From the NCBI GenBank assembly GCA_900543175.1, contig UQQO01000131.1, positions 1 through 5,870 of the forward strand: 5,870 bases of DNA, written 5' to 3'. Within the stretch, counting starts at the first letter, position 1, and every line of letters begins with the position of its first letter. This DNA comes from an uncultured Fusobacterium sp. (lineage in GTDB: Bacteria > Fusobacteriota > Fusobacteriia > Fusobacteriales > Fusobacteriaceae). The position numbers and the translations under genes are program-made. Shown one piece after another: positions 61 to 5,870 of this stretch. The notes below the pieces were generated by a model. That model made no database searches, was not told the DNA's origin, and worked only from the letters and a program-made list of their open reading frames with translations.

Positions 61-89
61 TTGAAAAATAAAGAAAAGTATGATAAAAT
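61..89 (+). promoter_or_regulatory. Promoter P1, extended -10, for the tyrS leader transcript
   Basis: There is a TTGAAA -35 at 61-66, a 17-base spacer, and TAAAAT at 84-89 preceded by TGA (81-83), i.e. the extended -10 TGNTAAAAT. Transcription would start near 95-97, about 13 bases before the Shine-Dalgarno of the short leader ORF at 120. The -10 and downstream bases (TGATAAAAT, then ATAGAAA) closely resemble promoter P2 at 314-341. The assignment rests on consensus match and position only. Confidence 0.6.
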
Positions 90-119
90 GTATAGAAATA
101 AAAACACAGAGGTAAATTT

Positions 120-170
120 ATGGTAACAAGAAATAATGTATTTTTAACATCTTCATATTATTACTGCTAA
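120..170 (+). CDS. Tyr-rich leader peptide, 16 aa (MVTRNNVFLTSSYYYC)
   Basis: A 16-codon ORF starts at ATG 120 and ends at TAA 168-170. The Shine-Dalgarno GAGG at 109-112 lies 7 bases from the ATG, as good as those of the large genes here. Codons 13-15 are three consecutive tyrosines (TAT TAT TAC, 156-164), then TGC (Cys) and stop. Three tandem Tyr codons at the end of a tiny, well-initiated ORF, followed by alternative RNA helices, a terminator and then tyrosyl-tRNA synthetase, is the layout of an attenuator leader peptide. Precedent for a synthetase operon is pheM before pheST in Escherichia coli. The peptide itself probably has no function; the ribosome's position on the Tyr codons would be the signal. 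The terminal Cys codon is unexplained. I do not recognise the peptide from any named family. Confidence 0.6.
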   Translation: MVTRNNVFLTSSYYYC

Positions 171-310
171 TAGAGAGTGTAAAAAGAATTAAAGTATATA
201 TTTATTCTTAAAACATTCTCATTTTGTCATGCAATAGCAGTTAAATAATAATGAGAGATGTATTAATGGATAGAGAAAGCCTATTGATACTGTCAATAGG
301 CTTTTATTTT
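156..310 (+). promoter_or_regulatory. Putative tyrosine-responsive transcription attenuator of tyrS
   Basis: Four segments behave like those of classical amino-acid attenuators. Segment 1 (156-169, the Tyr-Tyr-Tyr-Cys-stop codons) pairs with segment 2 (235-250): 163-169 with 235-241 and 156-162 with 244-250, separated by a 2-base bulge. Segment 2 also carries CAATAG (232-237), which can pair with CTATTG (281-286) in the left arm of the terminator (segment 3). Segment 3 otherwise pairs with segment 4 (293-304) to form the terminator. CAATAG is repeated at 294-299 in the right terminator arm, so segment 2 mimics segment 4. Between segments 1 and 2, GAGAGTGT (173-180) pairs with ACATTCTC (213-220) and AAGAAT (184-189) with ATTCTT (204-209). 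Inferred logic: ribosomes stalled on Tyr codons mask segment 1 and free segment 2 to block the terminator, and tyrS is transcribed. The 2:3 helix is short (6 bp), which is the weakest point. Confidence 0.5.
276..310 (+). terminator. Intrinsic terminator upstream of tyrS
   Basis: A 12-bp perfect stem pairs 276-287 (AAAGCCTATTGA) with 293-304 (TCAATAGGCTTT). The loop is 5 bases, and the T-rich run CTTTTATTTTTCTTT follows. This is the clearest hairpin of the window's first 370 bases. It sits after a 16-codon ORF rather than after a full gene, which is why it is read as an attenuator. Its T-run directly abuts the -35 of promoter P2. Confidence 0.87.
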
Positions 311-313
311 TCT

Positions 314-341
314 TTGAAAATATTGGCCTTTGTGATAAAAT
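314..341 (+). promoter_or_regulatory. Promoter P2, attenuator-independent start for tyrS
   Basis: TTGAAA at 314-319, a 16-base spacer, and TAAAAT at 336-341 preceded by TGA (333-335) form an extended -10 promoter. The start would fall near 347-349, leaving only about 22 bases before the tyrS ATG, with GGAGG at 359-363 as Shine-Dalgarno. If active, it gives tyrS a basal supply that bypasses the upstream terminator. It is the main reason for caution about the attenuator model. Confidence 0.5.
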
Positions 342-370
342 AATATAGAAAAAATGAGGGAGGATACAAG

Positions 371-5700: not shown

Positions 5701-5769
5701 ATTGAATTTAAAAATTTTTATTAAAAAAAGAAAAAAGTTGTTGACAGAAAATAGTAATTGTGATATTAT
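5701..5769 (+). promoter_or_regulatory. Strong promoter with UP-like A/T tracts, probably for an rRNA operon
   Basis: Bases 5701-5740 are almost pure A/T with phased A and T tracts, as in UP elements bound by RNA polymerase alpha subunits. Then come a perfect TTGACA (5741-5746), a 17-base spacer and TATTAT (5764-5769) preceded by TGA (5761-5763). This is the best promoter of the window by consensus. The expected start is near 5776. Confidence 0.7.
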
Positions 5770-5776
5770 AATCAAT

Positions 5777-5870
5777 GTACCGCAGGAAAGCGGAACGAAA
5801 GAAAAAAGAAAAAATAAAAAAAGGACATTAGCAACAGAATAGAGAAAGATGATAAAAATCAACAAACAAT
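5777..5870 (+). other. Transcribed leader, likely upstream of 16S rRNA
   Basis: After the promoter a small GC-rich hairpin, CCGC (5780-5783) with GCGG (5790-5793), extended by GT/AC around an A-A mismatch, is followed by a purine-rich stretch. Then comes GGACATTAGCAACAGAATAG (5823-5842), which recalls the GACATTGAAAAC-type leader and spacer sequences preceding rRNA genes. There is no good Shine-Dalgarno-plus-start pair; ATG 5850 (MIKINKQ, open to the window end) has only the weak AGAGAAAG before it. An rRNA operon starting just past 5870 is therefore favoured, but a protein gene is not excluded. Confidence 0.45.

Follow-up and report, generated by a model that had tools for sequence, protein, structure and literature searches.

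What controls the tyrS gene at the beginning of this fusobacterial contig, and does the DNA in front of it carry a sensor of tyrosine supply? The window, which is the whole stretch of 5,870 nucleotides that was analysed, places a short leader ORF and a terminator-like hairpin upstream of tyrS. The interpretation of this region as an attenuator, made in a preliminary description, is supported by the analysis below. We put the probability at roughly 0.84 that region 61–313, in front of tyrS, is a transcription attenuator in which a ribosome on the leader senses charged tRNA-Tyr, judging from sequence comparison and modelling.

The first 370 positions of the window contain a promoter-like site, a Shine-Dalgarno sequence, an ORF and a terminator-like stem-loop, followed by tyrS (Table 1). 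The preliminary description had reported these elements in the same order, and the observed architecture (ORF, Tyr codons, helices and terminator) is confirmed. The tyrS product matches TIGR00234 with 434 bits (cut-off 113.8). The leader ORF encodes MVTRNNVFLTSSYYYC (each peptide quoted here ends at a stop codon) and contains three tandem Tyr codons at positions 156–164, followed by a Cys codon and the stop codon at 168–170. The terminator-like site consists of 14 pairs, a loop of three and a T tract, and one such site is found compared with 0.0 in shuffles. The segment 96–320 folds with an energy of −55.1 kcal/mol (z −4.98), which was equalled by 0 of 200 shuffles. The five promoter-like sites in 1–420 are not above chance (3.2 ± 2.0 in shuffles), and the call of the putative promoter P1 therefore rests on conservation: a TTGAAA-17 site with an extended −10 element is found in 8/8 sequences of the orthologous set described below (class I). 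A second promoter-like site, P2, which the preliminary description did not mention, lies between the terminator and tyrS. No phage or plasmid sequence matched 61–370 in a BLAST search.

Table 1. Coordinates of tyrS and of the observed and predicted leader elements in the window
Feature	Positions	Strand	Basis
P1 promoter-like site, TTGAAA-17-TAAAAT, extended −10	61–89	+	pattern, recurrence in class I; predicted
Shine-Dalgarno AGAGG of leader ORF	108–112	+	sequence
Leader ORF, MVTRNNVFLTSSYYYC, 16 codons	120–170	+	conserved in 7 relatives
Region 1, leader codons forming the 5' strand of the long helix	135–169	+	duplex test, 9/1000 shuffles
Inner hairpin within the long helix; length and sequence differ among relatives	173–220	+	fold
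Region 2, 3' strand of the long helix; includes antiterminator 5' strand 260–269	235–271	+	pairing
Antiterminator helix, 260–269 x 281–290	260–290	+	predicted; 97.5% of cells paired; duplex tests
Intrinsic terminator stem-loop, 275–288 x 292–305, T-rich tract to 313	275–305	+	predicted
P2, second promoter-like site, TTGAAA-16-TAAAAT, extended −10	314–341	+	between terminator and tyrS; predicted
tyrS, tyrosine--tRNA ligase, 406 aa	371–1591 (including stop)	+	TIGR00234

No Rfam family reaches its gathering score in the window, and a permissive search of 1–420 gave six matches with no T-box among them. The best of the six, RefA9 (E 0.0042, 31.7 bits versus 49), lies on the minus strand, overlaps the terminator and is taken as a chance match. 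The Phe_leader family (RF01859) scores 15.7 bits in 1–420 compared with a gathering score of 55 (E 5.7). The T-box family (RF00230) has no match at gathering score in the window, in agreement with the T-box absence noted earlier, and none in 40 fusobacterial loci. The accompanying claim that tyrS is typically under T-box control in Firmicutes did not hold at this score: of 20 clostridial-type tyrS loci, just two had a T-box that reached it.

Orthologous leaders were identified in the family of the genome holding the F. gastrosuis locus (61 genomes, 57 with a TyrS match). Seven genomes carry one (L094, L095, L096, L097, L098, L099 and L116), and these leaders together with the window form class I (eight sequences); the TyrS proteins of the seven are 98.5 to 78% identical to that of the window. 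An alignment across Fusobacteria had been suggested as a check; in it, all 7 relatives retain the leader ORF, a tandem run of three to four Tyr codons and the terminator. One class I peptide is identical to that of the window; the others are MITKDNVFLTSSYYYYC, MFSKNNVFITSSYYYCY (twice), MFNKNNIFITSSYYYCN, MFNKNNVFITSSYYYCN and MITLNNVFLTASYYYSR. The Tyr codons vary synonymously between TAT and TAC, and L095 has four in succession. A DNA search of the 61 genomes with 96–313 gave matches in 15 genomes, comprising the seven tyrS loci and 13 further weak places. Three of the 13 are the terminator inverted repeat on the opposite strand of the same tyrS loci; among the other ten, six lie within unrelated coding frames and one (L379) is AT-rich without a Tyr leader, while weak places in G002, G003 and G040 lay outside this inspection. 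The weak places inspected contained no leader element away from tyrS. Ten TyrS relatives in viral contigs were set aside.

The leader codons from codon 6 to the stop codon form the 5' strand of a long helix with region 2. The Tyr codons had been described as one strand of such a helix, and this holds: the pair 158 x 248, within the first Tyr codon, reads T-A in four of the eight class I sequences, C-G in three others and T-G in the last. In the class I alignment, 94.3% of the cells in the long helix core (147–167) are paired versus 34–60% when the strands are slid; the corresponding values are 97.5% versus 27–65% for the antiterminator and 98.2% versus 27–56% for the terminator. The segment 281–288 is used by both the antiterminator and the terminator. 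Slid controls separate the pair counts from chance, with a bias arising from a structure derived from one row, but 500 column shuffles do not separate them from chance (reached in 107, 63 and 184 shuffles for the three helices) because the class I sequences are close. A second hairpin, 217–223 x 250–256, was dropped, being broken in part of the sequences.

The survey was extended to the phylum using PF00579, which covers TyrS and TrpS. Matches were found in 96 of 98 genomes, and tyrS upstreams were usable in 91 (seven of the 98 lacked one), a few of them shortened by contig ends (e.g. G068, 74 bases; G012, 119; G031, 221). A leader was counted when a short ORF with a Shine-Dalgarno sequence contained at least three consecutive Tyr codons and was followed by a terminator. 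Such leaders precede tyrS in 21 of the 91 genomes and are absent from the other 70, including the 36 genomes read in G062–G098. The 21 comprise the seven class I relatives, one leader in G049 (LDIKSVNKSMLLYYYYYYSNSDLY) and 13 class II leaders, which lie before TyrS proteins only 29–34% identical to that of the window; class II peptides include MIEKLRRNYYYYYYL, MKFIAVKGYYYYL, MKKNFTLGNRYYYYYL, MNRKINYNGYYYYYH and MKFEDNQTYYYYY. With TIGR00234, three of the class II proteins reach 382–402 bits. BLAST (E below 1e-5) sorts the leaders, 22 when that of the window is counted, into six groups with no detectable similarity between them, and a terminator is predicted in 22/22. Among the 91 upstreams, no tyrS leader ORF contains a run of any residue other than Tyr.

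Controls gave far fewer such leaders. A Tyr-run ORF with a Shine-Dalgarno sequence appeared in 4 of 3640 dinucleotide shuffles. Of 114 upstreams of other synthetases, one had such an ORF, and none had it together with a terminator. Upstreams of non-fusobacterial tyrS contained no Tyr-run ORF (0/76, ORF alone).

The helices were also assessed by duplex tests, in which the region from the stop codon to the terminator was compared with its dinucleotide shuffles. In the window, the leader helix was matched by 9 of 1000 shuffles (2/300 in an earlier run) and the antiterminator by 89 of 1000 (15/300 earlier). With one representative for each of the six dissimilar groups, the Fisher p value is 3e-6 for the leader helix and 0.02 for the antiterminator. 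Single failures occur: L116 fails the antiterminator test (292/300), and L122 fails the leader-helix test (155/300). The long leader helix is thus well supported, and the antiterminator is only modestly supported and constitutes the weakest part of the case. Of the mutually exclusive helices proposed earlier, the leader helix is supported; the antiterminator exceeds chance only weakly and at equilibrium always loses to the terminator.

P2 bears on how much of tyrS expression the leader could govern. A promoter-like site follows the terminator in 8/8 class I sequences, and an element similar to P2 is seen by eye before tyrS in leaderless relatives. Because P2 would bypass the attenuator, the latter would be an add-on to a basal tyrS level in the lineage of the window. 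These sites would also suit a relic or idle leader, in which P2 drives tyrS and P1 with its terminator adds little and has no tyrosine response. Such idleness is unlikely, as the leader, long helix and terminator are kept in eight sequences whose TyrS proteins diverge to 78% identity, and 12 of 13 class II loci have no promoter-like site after the terminator in the same scan.

According to the attenuator reading, RNA polymerase would initiate at P1, and a ribosome would follow on the leader. When charged tRNA-Tyr is ample, the ribosome would complete the leader at 168–170 and depart; region 1 could then pair with region 2, leaving the terminator arm 275–288 available, and transcription would end near 310. 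When charged tRNA-Tyr is scarce, the ribosome would be held on the Tyr codons and cover region 1. The freed segment 260–269 could then capture 281–290 before the 3' arm of the terminator is made, and the resulting antiterminator would let the polymerase continue into tyrS. In either state, P2 would supply basal tyrS transcription, to which the P1 transcript would add. Since the leader codons are themselves the 5' strand of the long helix, translation would open the helix, and a ribosome held on 156–164 would keep it open.

Energy calculations place constraints on this scheme. As isolated hairpins, the terminator (−16.8 kcal/mol) wins over the antiterminator (−6.9 kcal/mol) at equilibrium, and the switch would therefore have to be kinetic, with region 2 pairing with 281–290 before 292–305 is made. 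When the RNA under a ribosome at the first or second Tyr codon of the window is masked, the balance moves 2.3–2.4 kcal/mol toward the antiterminator; placing the third Tyr codon in the A site gives a shift of only 0.1 kcal/mol. A shift of at least 0.7 kcal/mol is obtained at some Tyr codon in 20 of the 22 leaders (the exceptions are L137 and L143), although in L139 only from an isolated Tyr codon. Window codons 6–12 behave like the Tyr codons, so the effect in the masking model is not confined to Tyr codons. In a model of truncated transcripts, stalling at the first Tyr codon raises the upstream capture of the terminator arm in 19 of 22 leaders and lowers it in L116, L132 and L143. Most class II leaders show a large rise (e.g. 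0.25 to 0.60 in L140) and class I a small one (for the window, only from 0.52 to 0.58), the antiterminator of class I being in this model largely formed in the free RNA already. The idea that the stalled ribosome has to cover the inner hairpin was abandoned, because this hairpin persists when the stalled state of the window is modelled.

Runs of cognate codons also precede other synthetase genes of the phylum. For thrS, the sample covered 43 of the 61 genomes (G031 and G060 were dropped for short contigs, and 16 others lay outside the sample). Thr-run leader ORFs with strong terminators, such as MRLLTTTTDTFI, occur before thrS in 11 of the 43 genomes (loci L226, L227, L229, L268, L277, L279, L282, L283, L285, L286, L287 and L292); a G044 thrS leader without a triple, MLGYFSSTTKTTI, was left uncounted. 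Ile-run leaders with terminators, such as MTLRAAIIIIISIICFQ, lie about 180–210 bases before a second ileS gene (ileS2) in 8/8 genomes with a close match (L304–L311). The second IleS, of 1038 residues, passes TIGR00392 and resembles MupA with 1050 bits, below the cut-off of 1900. Trp-run leaders with a terminator lie just before trpS in two of eight chosen genomes (L296 and L302; MSKGFTWWWKNLSNNFNTVSSK). At the trpS gene of L297, a leader ending in NWIHWWF and a stop codon is perhaps visible by eye. One of seven leuS loci (L215) has five consecutive Leu codons 162 bases before the called start, with a weak terminator (13.3) and an uncertain leuS start.

Non-cognate runs are confined to RRR before ileS2 (three genomes) and GGG before trpS (two genomes), both of which overlap the leader in another frame. 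No cognate-run leader was found before pheS (14 loci), valS (7), ileS (6), serS (7), proS (7) or hisS (7), and no cognate run with a terminator was found at 28 loci of aspS, lysS, asnS, cysS and one further PF00152 gene. At a lysS locus with an uncertain gene start (L341), a Lys-run ORF lacks a terminator and a Ser-run ORF has one. The seven metS loci were left out of the run scan because their gene start is ambiguous. Duplex tests on nine Thr, Ile and Trp leaders give Fisher p values of 2e-4 for the antiterminator and 2e-6 for the leader helix, which are upper bounds on the support because the nine include several single failures and relatives.

Chance is very unlikely as the source of the window leader, because unrelated Tyr-run leaders precede tyrS and runs of Thr, Ile and Trp precede their cognate genes. 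The conserved class I residues before the Tyr run (NNVF[LI]T[SA]SYYY) could alternatively belong to an arrest peptide, in which the nascent chain stalls the ribosome on free tyrosine or another small molecule and not for lack of charged tRNA-Tyr. We regard an arrest peptide as quite improbable, since the same nucleotides pair with region 2, which also accounts for the residue conservation, the six leader groups have only the Tyr run in common, and the Thr, Ile and Trp leaders have codon runs of their own. A small-protein gene with its own terminator and a fortuitous Tyr run, which would look identical in any one genome, is very nearly dismissed by the 21 of 91 real upstreams compared with 4 of 3640 shuffles and is contradicted by the cognate specificity of the runs (all Tyr before tyrS; the gene's own residue before thrS, ileS2 and trpS).

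Taken as sequence patterns, the leaders before the several genes support the view that ribosome-mediated attenuation recurs as a means of controlling synthetase genes in Fusobacteriota. On balance, we favour the broader view that this phylum repeatedly invented leader-peptide attenuators with runs of the gene's own residue (Tyr before two distant kinds of tyrS; Thr, Ile and Trp; perhaps Leu before leuS), and that the window represents the first Tyr-specific attenuator, whose sensing codons would also serve as one strand of the regulatory helix.

The kind of system is known, and the amino acid, the gene and the phylum appear to be new. In Escherichia coli, the synthetase genes pheST are preceded by a leader peptide (pheM) rich in cognate codons, by alternative helices and by a terminator, an arrangement also predicted for tyrS in the window. 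The two differ in the amino acid (Phe, not Tyr) and the phylum, no sequence similarity is expected between them, and the window has a P2-like site after the terminator. The tyrS T-box (RF00230) shares the proposed role of sensing tRNA-Tyr charging and controlling tyrS by a terminator or an antiterminator, but it binds tRNA directly without leader translation. Lyubetsky, Seliverstov and colleagues have reportedly surveyed synthetase attenuation, and these surveys could hold a prediction of a Tyr attenuator.

In the text available from each source, attenuation of pheST is cited (PMC11802643), and His leader peptides are predicted before hisS paralogues in bacilli (PMC2965389). The latter resemble the window in having a cognate-codon run before a synthetase gene, there replacing a T-box, but they concern His in bacilli of the Bacillota, whereas the fusobacterial leaders belong to another phylum and span several dissimilar groups and amino acids. 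The Corynebacterium glutamicum aroR leader likewise contains a Tyr codon (Phe-Tyr-Phe), but its target is a DAHP synthase operon, and it is reported to be unresponsive to Tyr (PMC11802643). According to the accessible parts of two surveys, no T-box was counted in two Fusobacteria/Thermotogae genomes (PMC2494555), and Fusobacteria were too small a group for judgement on leader genes (PMC4833913). No description of a Tyr attenuator of tyrS or of leader attenuation in Fusobacteria was recognised in the accessible parts of the open-access literature, including PMC2494555, PMC2965389, PMC4833913, PMC9413887, PMC11802643 and PMC8262941.

If the attenuator reading is true, tyrosine would join the amino acids that ribosome-mediated attenuation is able to sense, and the lineages using it on synthetases would come to include Fusobacteriota. 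In some Bacillota a T-box that binds tRNA governs tyrS, a task that on the present evidence would fall to a translating ribosome in Fusobacteriota. With six dissimilar Tyr groups and Thr, Ile and Trp versions, the phylum may therefore serve as a test bed for how easily a new switch originates.

Further observations concern neighbouring sequences. In four genomes without a Tyr-run leader (L117, L124, L125 and L126), a short frame roughly 100–145 bases before tyrS copies the TyrS N-terminus (12 of 19 residues identical) and continues with YRYC; this frame may be a leader that arose when part of the gene was copied. Near the end of the window, a promoter-like TTGACA-17-TATTAT site is followed by a small CCGC...GCGG inverted repeat (5741–5793, by eye), an element with no Rfam match in the whole-window search. 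Downstream of tyrS, one open frame (1599–2738) combines an acetyltransferase-like N-terminal part, with weak matches below cut-offs, and an endonuclease III part (TIGR01083, 249 bits, residues 172–363), and it represents either a fused gene or a pair of genes that share the frame.
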